Under the pieces are notes generated by a model. The model saw only the letters and a list, made by a program, of their open reading frames with translations. It was not told where the DNA came from and did not search any database. A program made the translations under genes and the position numbers. From positions 248,001-312,000 of the forward strand of contig CALVBT010000001.1 of NCBI GenBank assembly GCA_944325885.1: a DNA stretch of 64,000 bases, in the 5' to 3' direction. The DNA is from Candidatus Gastranaerophilales bacterium. Lineage in GTDB: Bacteria; Cyanobacteriota; Vampirovibrionia; Gastranaerophilales; Gastranaerophilaceae. Below, piece by piece: positions 38,416 through 60,686 of this stretch (positions are counted from its first letter, which is position 1; each line of letters begins with the position of its first letter).

Positions 38416-38500
38416 TTAACAAAACTTAACCAAAATGTTTAAAAAAACAGAATTCTGGGAACTATAAAAATATAAGTTACGGAACATGAGGAAAAAAAGA
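38416..38500 (+). repeat. Promoter/leader block shared by the two autotransporter genes (copy 1)
   Basis: This block is nearly identical to 57647-57730. Both contain TTAACAAAACTTAAC, AACAGAATTCTGGGAACTA, a TATAAAAATATAAG element and GAGGA before the start codon. Differences are one C/T change and a poly-A run of 7 (38492-38498) against 6 (57723-57728). A weak TATAAA -10 lies at 38463-38468. GGGAAC (38457-38462) resembles an ECF -35, without a convincing -10. The same block drives both genes, so they are probably co-regulated. Confidence 0.75.
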
Positions 38501-38599
38501 ATGGTTAGACTAGTCGGAAATATCAGTAAAAATAATATTGCCTTAAAACCCGCTCGTACCAATACTTTTAAGCTTTCGGGGGGGGGTATAAACCGCTAA
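38501..38599 (+). CDS. Out-of-frame leader ORF of autotransporter 1 (phase OFF)
   Basis: ATG 38501, with GAGGA 8 bp upstream, opens 32 codons: MVRLVGNISKNN and so on to FKLSGGGINR, then TAA at 38597. The G tract (38578-38586, 9 G) lies inside it. Adding one G changes the reading after Ser to GGGYKPLKTKHF and joins the signal peptide of the downstream passenger without a stop. It is therefore best seen as the true 5' end of the autotransporter gene, disrupted in this sequence by a one-base frameshift. Confidence 0.7.
   Translation: MVRLVGNISKNNIALKPARTNTFKLSGGGINR
38578..38586 (+). repeat. Poly-G tract (9 G) inside the 5' end of autotransporter 1
   Basis: Nine consecutive G in an AT-rich genome, between the leader codons and the signal peptide. 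Ten (or 7) would put leader and passenger in one frame; nine is OFF. Poly-G of this length is a classic slipped-strand hot spot. Confidence 0.9.
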
Positions 38600-38622
38600 A
38601 AACAAAGCATTTCGCCGGTGCG

Positions 38623-41600
38623 TTGGTGCTTGCCCTGACTCTTTCCCTTGCTCTTTCTTTTTCATCCGTGCTTCCTGCTTTTTCTCAGGAACCGGCAGAC
38701 GACCACGCATATACTCTTACAAAAATAGAAGTCCAAGACCCCTCTAACCTTCCTGCTAATACCATAACAAAATACGAATGGAGCGAAACAGAGAACAAAC
38801 TCACTCCCGTGTATTATCGAGTGGATTTAAAACAAACAGACTACGGCCATACAACAGACTATGACGAAGTAAAAACTTTCACAGTAACCACACCAAACGT
38901 CGACAATACAGGCAATGCCTTTGAATATGAAATCAACTACTATGTAAACAACGACCGCCTATCCCCTGACAGAATCACAACAAATCAAAACGGTGCTGAT
39001 ATAGATATGGATTTTGTTGGTTTAAAACATGAACCATCTTACGGTGCTTCATATGGCGGAGCGATTTATAATTATAATAATTTCACAATCAGCGATATCA
39101 CAGGTGACTTCATAGGAAACTATGTGCAATCAACCTATAGTTCAGTCCGTGGTGGAGCGATTTATAATTATAGAGACAACATAATTGGGAATATTACTGG
39201 CAACTTTATCGGAAACTATGCTTCTACAACTGATGAGTACAATAGCAATTCTGAAGGCGGAGCGATTTATAATTCTGGAGAAATTGGCGATATAACAGGT
39301 GACTTTATTGGTAATTATGTATATACATCGAGTAGCCGTAGATATGTTACTCCTCACGCATACGGTGGTGCTATCTACAATACAGGCACAATCGGCAACG
39401 TTACCGGTGATTTTATAGGTAACTATGCAAAAGCAGATAACGGTTATGCCTATGGCGGGGCAATTTATAGTCCTGATGAAATTGGCGATATTACAGGTGA
39501 CTTCATTGGTAACTATGCACATGGAAATCGTGATGCATATGGCGGAGCTATCTACCGTACAGGCAATGCAACAGTCAATATTACAGGTGATTTCATAGGT
39601 AATTATGCTAAATCAGATGACGGTTATGCCAATGGTGGTGCTATTTACAGTGCTGGTGAAATTGGCAACATCACAGGTGTCTTTATTAGCAACTATGCGA
39701 ATGGAGATGATGCCTCTGGCGGGGCAATTTATAACGAGAAAAGCAGTACAATCGGTTATATAGAAGGCGATTTTATAGGTAATTATACTACAAGTCATGG
39801 CGCTAATGCGTTCACCGCAAGCAATGGCGGGGCGATTGCAAATTTAGGCGCTATCAACAGCATTACAGGTGATTTTATAGGTAATTATGCTCTTGGATCT
39901 TCAAGAGACGCCAATGGTGGAGCTATTTATAATGACAACGACAGTACTACGATAGATAATATAAGTGGTGATTTCATAGGTAATTATATTTCTGGCAGTA
40001 CTGCCTATGGCGGTGCTGTTTATAACGCTGGTAAAATCAGCAATATCACAGGCAATTTTATTGGCAACTATGCACAAGGCTCAAGCAATGCCCATGGCGG
40101 AGCGATTGCTAATAATGGCACAATCGATAATATCACTGGGAACTTTATAGAGAACTACGTAAAAACCTTCTATTATTCTGGTGAAGGCGGTGCTATTATT
40201 AATCTTTCTGAAATCAACGATATAACAGGCGATTTCACCGGTAATTATGTATCCGCACTAAGTGATGATGAAGATGGTTCAGCCTCAGGCGGTGCGATTC
40301 ATAACTCAGGCTTAATCAGCAATATAACAGGCAATTTTACTGGCAACTATGCTAAATCTTTATCGAGTTCAGCCTCAGGTGGAGCGATTACTAATTATGG
40401 TACAATTGGAAACATAACAGGTAATTTTATCGGCAATTTTGTACAAGCAGAATCAGATTTAGCACAGGGAGGTGCAATTGCTAACTATGGCGCCTCGGGT
40501 TCAGGGCCAGTTTCGGAATCATTATTGAATGAATTACCACAGGCAAATTTATCTCTTACAAATTCATCTTTCTTTAATAATTATGCAAAATCACAAACAG
40601 GCACAGCCAATGGCGGTGCAATTTATACAAATGATAATTTGAATATTACTGCAAAAGACGGCGGCTATTCCGTATTCTCCGGCAACTATACAGAATCTAA
40701 TGGCATAAAAACGCCTAATGCCATATACGTTGAATCCTCTGTTTACGGCAGTGCCTCGCCAGCATCTTTATCTGCAAAAAATGATATTCCTGATTTCATA
40801 ATAAAAGACAATAAAGTTGTATATAAAACAACAACACCTAACTATACATATACGCCAGTATTAACACTTAATGCCACAAATAACGGCACAATCATCTTTG
40901 ATGATCAAATATCAGGCAGCGCACCAGCTAGTGAAACAACATATTCTGCAGACCTTGTTGTGACAGAAGATGCAAAAGAATACTATGGATTTTCTAATAT
41001 AGATGAACTTATAAATTATACAAAAACTCAGGGCTGGTATGATGAAGACACTCCTGATGAGGAAATAATTTACGATGCAATTGAAGGTGGTATATTAATT
41101 GCATCCAATGAGCAAATAATATCATCAGATATAAAAGGCAGCTACGATCTAAAACTCACAGGCGACACCACAGGCAAAATCATCCTAAACAACGACATAA
41201 TCAATGCCAACATATCTCTGGATAACACAAACCTCTACCTCGGACGAGAAAACGTCTTCGACCAATCTCAATCCCTATCCCTTAACTCAGGCAACCTCTA
41301 CCTCAACAATAACTCAATCGGAACAATGCATATACCCACCCTCAACCTCAACGGTAATACAAACCTCTCCGTCGACGTCGATTTGGCCAACAAACAAATG
41401 GATAGAATCACTGCTGATAACTACAACATCAACAACAATGATGCCTTCATCAACGTAAACAATATCAACCTCCTCTCAGATTCCAATCAACAATCCACAA
41501 GTATCCTATTCGCCGATGAACAACTCGCTAACAATGTCCAATATACAGGCTCTACCCCCATAGCCTACTCCCCAATATATAAATACGACGTGTCCTACTC

Positions 41601-42660
41601 CACTAACCCCGAAGATAACCTGGGCTACTTCTTCTTCAATAGAGCCTCCTCATCTTCAGGCAACCAGTCAGATGCCTTCAACCCCGCTGTCCTTACCCCC
41701 TCCGTAGCCACCCAGGCAGGCGCATATACAACCCAGCTCCAAACATTTAACTACGCCTTCCAACACTCGGATAACTTCATGCTTATCCCATCATTTGAAC
41801 GTATCTCTATCATTAATAATAATAAATATGCTTTAGCTCAAAATAACGGGGTGTTCTCCCCTCTCCTTACCCCTTCTTCTACCTCAAGCTTCTGGGTTAA
41901 ACCCTACGCATCATTTGAGTCTATCCCCCTCAATAACGGCCCAACCGTCTCCAATATCAACTACGGCACCCTCATCGGCTATGACTCAAACCTTAAACAA
42001 ATTAATAACGGTTGGTCAAGAGTTTTAACAGGATATATTGGATACAACGGAGCTTCCCAAAGATATCAGGGAGTAGATGCCTACCAGAACGGAGGCCTCA
42101 TAGGTGCAACAACAACCTTCTACAAAGGAAACTTCTTTAACGCAACAACAATCTCCGCAGGCGCAAGCGTAGGAGATGCCACAACCATGTATGGCTCGGA
42201 AAACTATACAATGCTCATGGCAGGTATAGGTAATAAATTCGGGTATAACTTCGAATTTAAGGATGGAAAGTATATCCTCCAACCCGCTATGCTCTTATCC
42301 TACTCTTTCATAAATACATTCGACTACAATAACGCAGCAGGCCTAAGAATAGAAAGTGACCCATTACACGCAATCCAACTATCCCCAGGAATAAAATTCA
42401 TAATGAATACAAAAAGTGGATGGCAGCCATATCTGGCAGTAAATATGACATGGAATATACTGGATGAAACAAAAGTAACAGCAAACGATGTAAGACTGCC
42501 CTCAATGAGTATAGACCCGTATGTATCATACGGAGCAGGGATACAAAAGCGATTCAATAATGACAGATTTACAGCGTTTGGACAAACAATGATACATAAC
42601 GGAGGCCGAAACGGTATCTCGCTCACTGCTGGATTCAGATGGAGGGTGGGGAAAGATTAA
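38623..42660 (+). CDS. Type V autotransporter with GGAIYN-repeat beta-helix passenger (copy 1, frameshifted from its leader)
   Basis: Type V secreted surface protein, probably an adhesin. The reading frame from TTG 38623 gives 1345 residues, but that start lacks a Shine-Dalgarno and a charged n-region. The proper start is probably ATG 38501, joined by one extra G (1386 residues). A hydrophobic signal peptide ends at PAFS before QEPADD. The passenger has 17 repeats of about 20-45 residues, GGAIYN...ITGDFIGNYA, expected to form a parallel beta-helix. A linker and a beta-barrel of about 280 residues follow (from about GFWVKPYASFESIPLNNG to FRWRVGKD), which inserts in the outer membrane. Barrel and linker (41155 onward) are nearly identical to those of copy 2 (59187 onward). 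Confidence 0.85.
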   Translation: MVLALTLSLALSFSSVLPAFSQEPADDHAYTLTKIEVQDPSNLPANTITKYEWSETENKLTPVYYRVDLKQTDYGHTTDYDEVKTFTVTTPNVDNTGNAFEYEINYYVNNDRLSPDRITTNQNGADIDMDFVGLKHEPSYGASYGGAIYNYNNFTISDITGDFIGNYVQSTYSSVRGGAIYNYRDNIIGNITGNFIGNYASTTDEYNSNSEGGAIYNSGEIGDITGDFIGNYVYTSSSRRYVTPHAYGGAIYNTGTIGNVTGDFIGNYAKADNGYAYGGAIYSPDEIGDITGDFIGNYAHGNRDAYGGAIYRTGNATVNITGDFIGNYAKSDDGYANGGAIYSAGEIGNITGVFISNYANGDDASGGAIYNEKSSTIGYIEGDFIGNYTTSHGANAFTASNGGAIANLGAINSITGDFIGNYALGSSRDANGGAIYNDNDSTTIDNISGDFIGNYISGSTAYGGAVYNAGKISNITGNFIGNYAQGSSNAHGGAIANNGTIDNITGNFIENYVKTFYYSGEGGAIINLSEINDITGDFTGNYVSALSDDEDGSASGGAIHNSGLISNITGNFTGNYAKSLSSSASGGAITNYGTIGNITGNFIGNFVQAESDLAQGGAIANYGASGSGPVSESLLNELPQANLSLTNSSFFNNYAKSQTGTANGGAIYTNDNLNITAKDGGYSVFSGNYTESNGIKTPNAIYVESSVYGSASPASLSAKNDIPDFIIKDNKVVYKTTTPNYTYTPVLTLNATNNGTIIFDDQISGSAPASETTYSADLVVTEDAKEYYGFSNIDELINYTKTQGWYDEDTPDEEIIYDAIEGGILIASNEQIISSDIKGSYDLKLTGDTTGKIILNNDIINANISLDNTNLYLGRENVFDQSQSLSLNSGNLYLNNNSIGTMHIPTLNLNGNTNLSVDVDLANKQMDRITADNYNINNNDAFINVNNINLLSDSNQQSTSILFADEQLANNVQYTGSTPIAYSPIYKYDVSYSTNPEDNLGYFFFNRASSSSGNQSDAFNPAVLTPSVATQAGAYTTQLQTFNYAFQHSDNFMLIPSFERISIINNNKYALAQNNGVFSPLLTPSSTSSFWVKPYASFESIPLNNGPTVSNINYGTLIGYDSNLKQINNGWSRVLTGYIGYNGASQRYQGVDAYQNGGLIGATTTFYKGNFFNATTISAGASVGDATTMYGSENYTMLMAGIGNKFGYNFEFKDGKYILQPAMLLSYSFINTFDYNNAAGLRIESDPLHAIQLSPGIKFIMNTKSGWQPYLAVNMTWNILDETKVTANDVRLPSMSIDPYVSYGAGIQKRFNNDRFTAFGQTMIHNGGRNGISLTAGFRWRVGKD
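39055..40630 (+). repeat. GGAIYN passenger repeats (17 units)
   Basis: In-frame DNA repeats of roughly 60-130 bp encode GGA[IV][YAIHT][NS]...[IV]TG[DN]F[IT]GNY. Unit length varies because of short insertions. They are protein repeats, not a CRISPR or transposon array. Confidence 0.85.
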
Positions 42661-57730: not shown

Positions 57731-57823
57731 ATGGTTAGACTAGTCGAAAATATCAGTGAAAATAATATTACCTTAAAACCTGCTCGTACCAATGCTTTTA
57801 GTCTTTCGGGGGGGGGGGTATAA
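57731..57823 (+). CDS. Out-of-frame leader ORF of autotransporter 2 (phase OFF)
   Basis: ATG 57731 (GAGGA upstream) reads MVRLVENISENN and so on to FSLSGGGV, then TAA. It contains the 11-G tract. Removing one G would join GGGYKPLKTKHFACSLTL and the signal peptide. It corresponds residue for residue to the copy 1 leader. Confidence 0.7.
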   Translation: MVRLVENISENNITLKPARTNAFSLSGGGV

Positions 57824-60686
57824 ACCGCTAAAGACAAAGCATTTCGCCTGTTCGTTGACGCTTGTTTTGACTCTTTCCCTTGCTCTTTCCCTTGCTCTTT
57901 CATTTTCATCCGTGCTTCCTGCTTTTTCTCAGGAACCGGCAGACGACCACGCATATACTCTTACCAAAATAGAAGTCCAAGACCCGTCTAACCTTCCGGC
58001 TAATACAATCACAAAATACGAATGGAGCGAAACAGAAAACAAACTCACTCCCGTGTACTACCGTGTAGACCTAAAACAAACAGACTACGGCCACAAAGCA
58101 GACCAAGACGATGTAAAAACATTTACCGTAACCACACCCAACACTGACAATACTGGCAATGCCTTTGAATACACAATCAACTACTACGTAAACAATGACA
58201 GCCTTGCACCTGACAGAATCACAACAAATCAAAACGGTGCAGATCTTGACTTTGATTTTGTTGGTCTAAAACATGAACCATCTTACGGTTCTTCATTTGG
58301 CGGTGCTATTTACAATAGTAGCGGAACAATCGGAGATATCACAGGCAATTTTATAGGCAACTATGCAAAATCTGAAAATAGGGAGGCCAGAGGCGGAGCG
58401 ATTTCTAATGCAGGCACAATCGGAAATATAACAGGTGACTTCATAGGAAACTATGCGCAATCAGATTATGAAGCCCATGGCGGAGCGATTTATAATCAAG
58501 AAACAATCGGCAATATAACAGGCGATTTTATAGGCAACTATGCTCAAGCTAATGAGCAAGCCGCAGGCGGAGCGATTTATAATGAAGGAATAATCGGAGA
58601 TATAACCGGTGACTTTATAGGTAACTATGCTTCCGGTAATAGTGCTGCAGGCGGAGCGATTGCTAATGGAGGAGGAACAATCGGAGATATCACCGGCGAT
58701 TTTATCGGAAACTATGCAAAATCTGAAAACGGTTTTGCCTGGGGCGGTGCTATTATGAATCAAGGCATAATCGGCACAATAAACCAGGATACAGGAGAAA
58801 TCACCTACGGAGAAATCAAAAACTCTTCATTCATAGGCAACTACGCAGAATCCACAAATGGAACAGCAATAGGCGGCGCAATATCGAGCATGTATCATCT
58901 TAATATCACAGCAGACAACGGCCAATCCGTCTTCTCCGGCAATAAAACAATCTCAAACGGCATTGAAGAACAAAACGCAATCGGCATGTATGGCTTTGTC
59001 GAAAAACAAGACGACAAATATGTTTTTCAAGATTTTACAGGTCCAACTGACAAAAACCCTGCCTCATTAACCCTCAAAGCCGTAAACAACGGCGTAATAG
59101 TCTTTGATGACACAATCAGAGGCGGCGGACTGGACATGAACACATTTTCGCCTATCGAAACCCCTGAAACAGCCTTTGACCTCACCCTCACAGGCGACAC
59201 CACAGGCAAAGTAATATTAAACAACGACATAATCAACGCCAATATCTCACTCGACAACACAAACCTCTACCTCGGCCGAGAAAACGTCTTCGACCAATCT
59301 CAATCCCTATCCCTTAACTCAGGCAACCTCTACCTCAACAATAACTCAATCGGAACAATGCATATACCCACCCTCAACCTCAACGGAACTACTAACCTCT
59401 CCGTCGACGTTGACCTCGCCAACAAACAAATGGATAGAATCACCGCTGATAACTACAACATAACAAATAAAGATTCCTTCATAAACGTAAACAATATCAA
59501 CCTCCTCTCAGATTCCAATCAACAATCCACAAGTATCCTATTCGCAGATGAACAACTCGCAAATAACGTCCAATACTCAGGCCCCTCCCCCATAGCCTAC
59601 TCACCAATATATAAATACGACGTGTCATACTCTACTAACCCAGAAGATAACCTCGGCTACTTCTTCTTCAATAGAGCATCCTCTTCCTCAGGCAACCAGT
59701 CAGATGCCTTCAACCCCGCTGTCCTTACCCCATCAGTAGCCACCCAGGCAGGCGCATATACTACCCAGCTCCAAACCTTTAACTACGCCTTCCAACACTC
59801 AGACTCCTTCATGAATATCCCCTCTTTAGATAGACTATCTATCATCAATAACAATAAATATGCACTAAATACAACAAACTTCTCCCCACTCCTTACCCCA
59901 CACTCCCACAACGGATTCTGGGTTAAACCCTACGCCTCCTTCGAGTCTATCCCCCTCAATAACGGCCCAACCGTCTCCAATATCAACTACGGCACCCTCA
60001 TAGGCTATGACTCCGATATTAAACAAATTAATCACGGCTTTAATAGAGTCTTAACTGCATATATTGGTTACAACGGAGCTTCCCAAAGATATCAAGGCGT
60101 AGATGCCTACCAAAATGGAGGTATCCTCGGCACAACTACTACCTTCTACAAAGGTAACTTCTTTAACGCTACTACAGTATCAGTAGGAGCAAGCGTAGGA
60201 GATGCAACAACCATGTACGGCTCAGAAAACTATACAATGCTCATGGCAGGTATAGGTAATAAATTCGGGTATAACTTTGAATTTAAACAAGGAAAATATA
60301 TCCTCCAACCAAACTTCTTAATGTCCTATTCCTTCATAAATACTTTCGACTATACAAACGCAGCAAACGTAAGAATCGAAAGTGACCCGTTGCATGCACT
60401 CCAACTCTCCCCCGGAATAAAATTCATAATGAATACAAAGAACGGATGGCAGCCATATCTCGCAGTAAATATGACATGGAATATACTGGATGAAACAAAA
60501 GTAACAGCAAACGACGTAAGACTGCCATCCATGTCCATCGACCCTTATGTATCATACGGAGCAGGTATACAGAAATGCTTTAAGGACGATAGATTCACAG
60601 CATACGGCCAGGCCATGGTACATAACGGAGGCCGAAACGGTGTATCCCTTACAGCAGGATTCCGCTGGAGGGTGGGTAAGGATTAA
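57792..60686 (+). CDS. Type V autotransporter with GGAIYN repeats (copy 2, frameshifted from its leader)
   Basis: Paralogue of the 38623 gene. The downstream frame could start at ATG 57792 (964 residues), but there is no Shine-Dalgarno there; ATG 57731 with one fewer G gives 984 residues. The signal peptide ends at PAFS before QEPADD. The passenger has only 7 GGAIYN-type repeats, then the linker and barrel ending FRWRVGKD. The barrel and linker share near-identity with copy 1, including long identical DNA stretches. The product is probably a shorter surface adhesin. No terminator is seen between it and rlmN. Confidence 0.85.
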   Translation: MLLVFRGGGYKPLKTKHFACSLTLVLTLSLALSLALSFSSVLPAFSQEPADDHAYTLTKIEVQDPSNLPANTITKYEWSETENKLTPVYYRVDLKQTDYGHKADQDDVKTFTVTTPNTDNTGNAFEYTINYYVNNDSLAPDRITTNQNGADLDFDFVGLKHEPSYGSSFGGAIYNSSGTIGDITGNFIGNYAKSENREARGGAISNAGTIGNITGDFIGNYAQSDYEAHGGAIYNQETIGNITGDFIGNYAQANEQAAGGAIYNEGIIGDITGDFIGNYASGNSAAGGAIANGGGTIGDITGDFIGNYAKSENGFAWGGAIMNQGIIGTINQDTGEITYGEIKNSSFIGNYAESTNGTAIGGAISSMYHLNITADNGQSVFSGNKTISNGIEEQNAIGMYGFVEKQDDKYVFQDFTGPTDKNPASLTLKAVNNGVIVFDDTIRGGGLDMNTFSPIETPETAFDLTLTGDTTGKVILNNDIINANISLDNTNLYLGRENVFDQSQSLSLNSGNLYLNNNSIGTMHIPTLNLNGTTNLSVDVDLANKQMDRITADNYNITNKDSFINVNNINLLSDSNQQSTSILFADEQLANNVQYSGPSPIAYSPIYKYDVSYSTNPEDNLGYFFFNRASSSSGNQSDAFNPAVLTPSVATQAGAYTTQLQTFNYAFQHSDSFMNIPSLDRLSIINNNKYALNTTNFSPLLTPHSHNGFWVKPYASFESIPLNNGPTVSNINYGTLIGYDSDIKQINHGFNRVLTAYIGYNGASQRYQGVDAYQNGGILGTTTTFYKGNFFNATTVSVGASVGDATTMYGSENYTMLMAGIGNKFGYNFEFKQGKYILQPNFLMSYSFINTFDYTNAANVRIESDPLHALQLSPGIKFIMNTKNGWQPYLAVNMTWNILDETKVTANDVRLPSMSIDPYVSYGAGIQKCFKDDRFTAYGQAMVHNGGRNGVSLTAGFRWRVGKD
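57808..57818 (+). repeat. Poly-G tract (11 G) inside the 5' end of autotransporter 2
   Basis: Eleven G, one more than the in-frame length of ten. Same site as the 9-G tract of copy 1. Confidence 0.9.
58299..58890 (+). repeat. GGAIYN passenger repeats (7 units)
   Basis: In-frame repeats encode GGA-I-x-N...ITGDFIGNYA. This is ten fewer than in copy 1. Confidence 0.85.

Follow-up and report, generated by a model that had tools for sequence, protein, structure and literature searches.

A leader, a G tract and an autotransporter frame

The window analysed here is a stretch of 64,000 nucleotides from a Candidatus Gastranaerophilales genome (contig CALVBT010000001.1, positions 248,001 to 312,000), and coordinates without a contig name refer to it. 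Its first autotransporter gene lies on the forward strand and starts with a Shine-Dalgarno sequence, GAGGA (38488 to 38492), located 8 nt upstream of an ATG at 38501. This ATG opens a short leader ORF (38501 to 38577, forward strand) that consists of MVRLVGNISKNNIALKPARTNTFKL plus 2 nt of the next codon, a layout common to three paralogues. Within the leader, an AAAACCC box (38545 to 38551) is found on the G strand about 33 nt 5' of a tract of nine Gs (38578 to 38586); in most homologues the box stands at -30 to -36, in both gene orientations. At this tract length the leader ends at a TAA stop (38597 to 38599). The putative signal peptide, the repeat passenger and the barrel form a frame of 1357 open codons (38587 to 42660, the codons running to 42657, forward strand), which at nine Gs is out of the leader frame. 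The preliminary description of this DNA had placed the Shine-Dalgarno sequence, the ATG, the G run and the stop at these same positions, and the signal peptide and passenger/barrel in a different frame from the leader; both statements were confirmed.

When the frames were tabulated for tracts of 5 to 14 Gs, the leader was continuous with the passenger at 7, 10 and 13 Gs, while every other length led to a stop within a few codons, which bears out the earlier count that ten Gs (or seven) would fuse the two. The earlier view that the downstream frame has no proper start also stands. At nine Gs no ATG stands close to the beginning of the passenger frame, and the first start-like codon is a TTG at 38623, which is not preceded by a Shine-Dalgarno sequence and falls inside the hydrophobic stretch of the signal peptide. 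Another ATG, at 38486, shares the frame of the ATG at 38501, but its Shine-Dalgarno sequence is poorer, and in the sister gene the two do not share a frame. Matches to nine consecutive Gs number four in the window, against 0.05 expected, and none of 100 dinucleotide shuffles reached that count.

Identity of the encoded protein

The downstream frame is predicted to encode a type Va autotransporter whose repeat passenger is Pmp-like. Its putative signal peptide, KPLKTKHFAGALVLALTLSLALSFSSVLPAFS, was recognised by eye. The body holds 17 GGA[ILV] and 21 FxxN motifs (0.3 and 6.5 in shuffles) and thereby has the multiple repeats expected of the Pmp family of Chlamydia. A Pfam search of the gene gave a single Chlam_PMP repeat above threshold (2.5e-4) and nothing else, the PMP middle domain included. 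The window protein works like a Pmp protein, yet it is not filed as a member of the Pmp family.

The C-terminal linker helix and 12-strand barrel typical of type Va autotransporters (41683 to 42645, forward strand) are present in an AlphaFold2 model built from an alignment of 38 sequences, whose confidence is low to moderate overall (pLDDT 64 for the whole model, mostly 71-89 in the barrel). The best Foldseek matches of this predicted fold were autotransporters, namely AIDA-I (4mee, E 1.1e-13), EspP, and BrkA (3qq2, TM(target) 0.84). With these proteins it has in common a repeat passenger and, in the predicted fold, the helix and barrel, next to the putative signal peptide. Unlike them, the window gene is too distant in sequence to match PF03797 of Pfam, which 3 of the 38 homologues do match, and a barrel-profile sequence search of the PDB gave no match, whereas the fold search did. 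The C-terminal region is mostly 64-88% identical across homologues from many relatives.

Four paralogues with tracts in one genome

The succession of leader, tract, KPLKTKHF-like n-region and signal peptide recurs in four paralogous genes of this genome, whose ON and OFF states are given here as the assembly consensus, the tract length of a metagenome assembly being possibly off by one. The gene described above (tract at 38578) has nine Gs, needs ten, and is OFF. The second autotransporter of the window has a leader ORF at 57731 to 57807, a tract of 11 Gs at 57808 to 57818, and a body with signal peptide, passenger and barrel at 57819 to 60686 (955 codons), all on the forward strand; its barrel is 88.6% identical to that of the first gene, with a dN/dS of 0.13. 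This copy needs ten Gs and is OFF for the ATG at 57731, a call that is less firm because 11 Gs put the body in the frame of an internal ATG at 57792, which lacks a Shine-Dalgarno sequence. The third copy (C1:152559) carries nine Gs, needs 8 or 11, and is OFF. The fourth (C4:148285), with the ten Gs that it needs, is the sole copy of the four in frame, and thus ON. A more distant paralogue (L210, C3:201600) has no G or C run at all and starts with an ordinary ATG and signal peptide.

Apart from the tract the frames of the paralogues are intact, several of them being broken there alone, and near-identical paralogues differ mainly in tract length. Their barrels are 88-99.7% identical, with dN/dS values of 0.016-0.14 between copies, the OFF copies included; purifying selection therefore still acts on those that the assembly shows as OFF.

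Across the 2.17 Mb of this genome (19 contigs), short G runs are scarce and long ones in excess: 6 runs of at least seven Gs were found where about 23 are predicted, and 5 of at least nine Gs against 0.75, the expected counts coming from an order-1 model built on window composition. Four of the five runs of at least nine Gs occupy the same site in paralogous autotransporter genes. The fifth, of 12 Gs, splits a giant flagellin gene of about 1340 codons (L004:884-4904; G000:C2, about 75.9-79.9 kb), in which the Flagellin_N domain lies right before the tract and the Flagellin_C domain ends the 1183-codon frame that follows it. By frame arithmetic, 11 Gs would join Flagellin_N to the long middle region and Flagellin_C.

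Homologues across the genus

The homologues in named records belong to Candidatus Gastranaerophilales genomes from metagenomes, with a few bins labelled differently. Runs of at least eight Gs are present in 20 of the 23 species examined in the genus. Among the 88 distinct tracts collected there, 46 lie at the 5' ends of this autotransporter family or of look-alike leaders; in 31 of them the coding strand carries the G run (type A), in 15 it carries a C run (type B). Leader tracts are 8-13 G/C long, most commonly 10-11. Counting only homologues with a leader ATG preceded by a Shine-Dalgarno sequence and at least 200 open codons downstream, 5 of 26 are ON, a share below the one third expected at random, if not strikingly so.

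The length of the tract varies among close relatives. In 23 of the 28 pairs of tract loci that are at least 90% identical around the tract the lengths differ; these pairs are not independent events, since they share sequences. Two loci on different contigs of one genome (L128 and L187, G011) are identical over 187 flanking nucleotides, with C11 and C10 as their sole difference. These two paralogous 5' ends appear to result from recent copying between loci followed by a change in the tract. Some copies look locked, judging from their tracts: L219 and L242 have six Gs each and keep leader and body in frame, whereas in L243 the run is interrupted, GGGGGTGGGGG, and the frame is lost. A simple-sequence (slipped-strand) contingency locus needs a tract long enough to slip, at least 7-8 Gs, within a coding sequence or promoter; here nine Gs are located in the 5' coding region, and the tract length shifts the frame of the body relative to the start. 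The length polymorphism seen is that between paralogues and related species only. No length variants of these loci were found in viral contigs.

In several leaders (L073, L112 and L190-L196), translated short dispersed repeats (RHSERSEES, CHPGGF) stand just 3' of the tract, as if this 5' region tolerated insertions.

Probable regulation by tract slippage and its alternatives

The G tract is very probably a translational phase-variation switch. Translation would begin at the ATG at 38501, and replication slippage would add Gs to the tract or remove them. With 7, 10 or 13 Gs the ribosome would continue into the signal peptide, and an autotransporter displayed on the surface would result; with other lengths translation would stop after about 32 residues. 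The assembly shows nine Gs, so the commonest sampled state would be OFF. Since independent copies of the switch sit on four paralogues (9, 11, 9 and 10 Gs), cells would differ in the autotransporters that they display. Slippage, which the preliminary description had also proposed, is supported as the best reading of the sequence data by the conserved position of the tract and its recurrence in the four paralogues and about 40 homologues, by the frame arithmetic and the anatomy of the locus, by the variable length among copies, and by the intact OFF copies that purifying selection maintains. Active switching within a population, with its consequence for expression, would follow from this reading, and cells might benefit by altering their adhesion or by evading phages or the immunity of the host.

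The tract could instead be fixed at an in-frame length, the nine Gs being an assembly or sequencing error, and the gene be permanently ON, its protein having a long N-terminal extension. Metagenome assemblies are prone to errors in homopolymer length, and the same doubt has been reported for C. psittaci pmp genes (PMC3323650). Yet homologous tracts range from 8 to 13 in independent assemblies, in ON and OFF frames, and the copy at C1:152559, which has nine Gs and needs 8 or 11, means that several separate errors would be required. Even a fixed G10 would remain mutable, and this explanation is considered unlikely. Slightly less probable still is a slippery site, where ribosomal or transcriptional slippage would yield some full-length protein at any tract length and the tract would set expression at a fixed level, as a dimmer does, instead of being a genetic switch. 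Slippage on long G runs can occur in both transcription and translation, and the two frames overlap the tract. Against this, a programmed site would hold its length and frame relation, which vary widely here, and similar tracts are found in other genes on the C strand and, in one place, in a spacer that resembles a promoter.

It is very improbable that the body is translated from the TTG at 38623 (or a GTG at 38626) and that the leader is an unrelated small ORF. This TTG is indeed the first start-like codon of the open frame, but a protein started there, without a Shine-Dalgarno sequence and within the hydrophobic core, would lose the basic n-region KPLKTKHF that is conserved among the paralogues, and homologues with short tracts have leader and body in one frame. 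The broken consensus frame might also belong to a pseudogene in decay, frameshifted at a run that is prone to mutation. Given 1357 codons without a further stop, several paralogues broken at the tract alone, and barrels with dN/dS well below 1, on which it was rejected, this is the least credible of the explanations.

Relation to known phase-variable systems

Phase variation by slippage in a poly-G tract is a known mechanism; the lineage and the scale appear undescribed. Autotransporters of the Pmp type are the closest precedent: poly-G phase variation has been described or suggested for them in Chlamydia pneumoniae, C. abortus, C. psittaci and C. trachomatis (PMC4488443, PMC3504296, PMC6812762, PMC3323650), and C. 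abortus has paralogues that are identical but for a frameshift in the tract (PMC6812762). According to the preliminary description, no account of such switching was known for this type of gene in this lineage. This holds for the lineage, as no report of phase variation in Gastranaerophilales, Melainabacteria or Vampirovibrionia was found in the open-access literature, but the Chlamydia precedent for the gene type had been left out. With the Chlamydia proteins (the C. pneumoniae pmp10/pmpG family, C. abortus pmp12G/16G/17G and the C. psittaci pmps) the genes described here share surface autotransporters with GGA(I/L) and FxxN motifs, several paralogues, a poly-G tract and, presumably, frame-dependent expression. 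They differ in belonging to another phylum, in the absence of the PMP middle domain by Pfam, in having one Chlam_PMP repeat over threshold, and in the position of the tract, which at the 5' end separates a short leader from the signal peptide, while that of C. abortus pmp16G is reported to be centrally located.

The other precedent is found in Campylobacter, where PhasomeIt revealed large poly-G phasomes of 5-81 phase-variable genes per strain (PMC6321876). As in Campylobacter and Helicobacter, G/C tracts of about 9-11 dominate, several to dozens of loci occur per genome, and surface and methylase genes are involved. Here, by contrast, the bacteria are a sister group of cyanobacteria that is not photosynthetic, they have MutS1 and MutL, and in one genome runs of nine or more Gs number 119.

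Tract-bearing genes of other kinds and scale in the lineage

Besides autotransporters, tracts in the same genus interrupt genes for an N6/N4 DNA methylase, an AlgX-like acetyltransferase, an FkbM methyltransferase and a polysaccharide pyruvyl transferase. Elsewhere in the family, in other genera, a short leader is often followed by the tract and then by an N-methylation sequence like that of type IV pilins, and tracts are also found in genes for UDP-sugar dehydrogenases, aminotransferases, acyltransferases and glycosyltransferases. The tract genes of the lineage (flagellin, DNA methylase, acyl-, glycosyl- and pyruvyltransferases, pilin-like proteins) are of the kinds that are usually phase-variable.

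At L202 (G018:C7) a DNA methylase gene (N6_N4_Mtase) is split by an 11-G tract, and a second 11-G tract lies about 570 nt away in a methylase-like neighbour, making this locus a candidate phase-variable methylation system. At L250 (1900-2120, reverse strand), a single case from the other genera of the family, nine Gs form the spacer between TTTACA-like and TATAAT-like boxes upstream of a Shine-Dalgarno sequence and an ATG; this tract would switch transcription, as a candidate case of transcriptional phase variation.

Seven genomes, which belong to two genera, each contain between 23 and 119 runs of nine or more Gs, where about 1.3 are expected in the richest. The genome G139 and others of its genus hold 42-119 such runs in 1.6-2.0 Mb, with MutS1 present; several sampled runs in these tract-rich genomes are intergenic, and the count of 119 takes coding and intergenic runs together. 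Their poly-G repertoires are possibly among the largest known. The strict pattern CGGGGGGGGGNAT was matched in 39 of 286 sampled genomes of the order and in 13 of 50 genera, both of which are lower bounds.

Loss of mismatch repair was considered as a cause and rejected. MutS1 is above the cut-off in 22 of 23 members of the genus and in all 22 other genomes tested, including every tract-rich genome tested, and the genome studied here has both MutS1 and MutL; switching is therefore not helped by the loss of this system.

The Gastranaerophilales are mostly uncultured relatives of cyanobacteria from animal guts. The tracts on the sister genes, and those on surface genes that number dozens across the family, point to what may be a large and undescribed system for random change of the cell surface. 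If the tracts switch, autotransporters, pilin-like proteins, flagellin, glycans and DNA methylation would be varied randomly, as in mucosal pathogens, which would help to explain the strain-level heterogeneity of the surface. It would also mean that gene calls in these genomes are systematically wrong, with OFF genes called truncated or missing. Switching is readily testable in existing metagenome reads.

Conserved DNA context of the tracts

Throughout the genus, the G strand 5' of the tract carries the sequence AAAACCC, whose usual starting point is 33 nt ahead of the run, and this region often ends in TTTC. The context is found with type A and type B tracts alike: in 14 of the 15 flanks of type B there is a 9-mer that flanks of type A have in the same register (mean 1.2 and maximum 4 in 200 shuffles), although the type-B flanks resemble one another and are thus not 15 independent cases. 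The window sequence TTTTAAGCTTTCGGGGGGGGG occurs exactly at a type-B locus of another species. A protein-level cause is hard to reconcile with the presence of the context in both orientations, and a DNA-level element behind it is possible.

It may be, although this is a tentative proposal and more doubtful than not, that the AAAACCC sequence, some 26 partly conserved nucleotides often ending in TTTC, and the G tract together form a transferable "switch cassette" of which the G tract is the active end. It would have been placed in either orientation into the 5' ends of surface genes of the genus and would make them phase-variable, in a family of gut bacteria that uses such tracts unusually widely although its mismatch repair is intact.

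A conserved hairpin, AAAACCCTTG-N5-CAAGGGTTTT, was also considered as a functional unit but found no support, as compensatory changes were no more frequent than in shuffles and the predicted DNA folding was weak in several copies. An imperfect palindrome, AAACCCTTG-N4-6-CAANGNTTT, occurs 26 times in the genus (none for the reversed control), 22 of them at leaders of the autotransporter type. In one genome (G019; L224, L230, L236 and L241), AAACCCTTG-N5-CAANGNTTT palindromes are found without an adjoining G run, most of them in positions that look intergenic.
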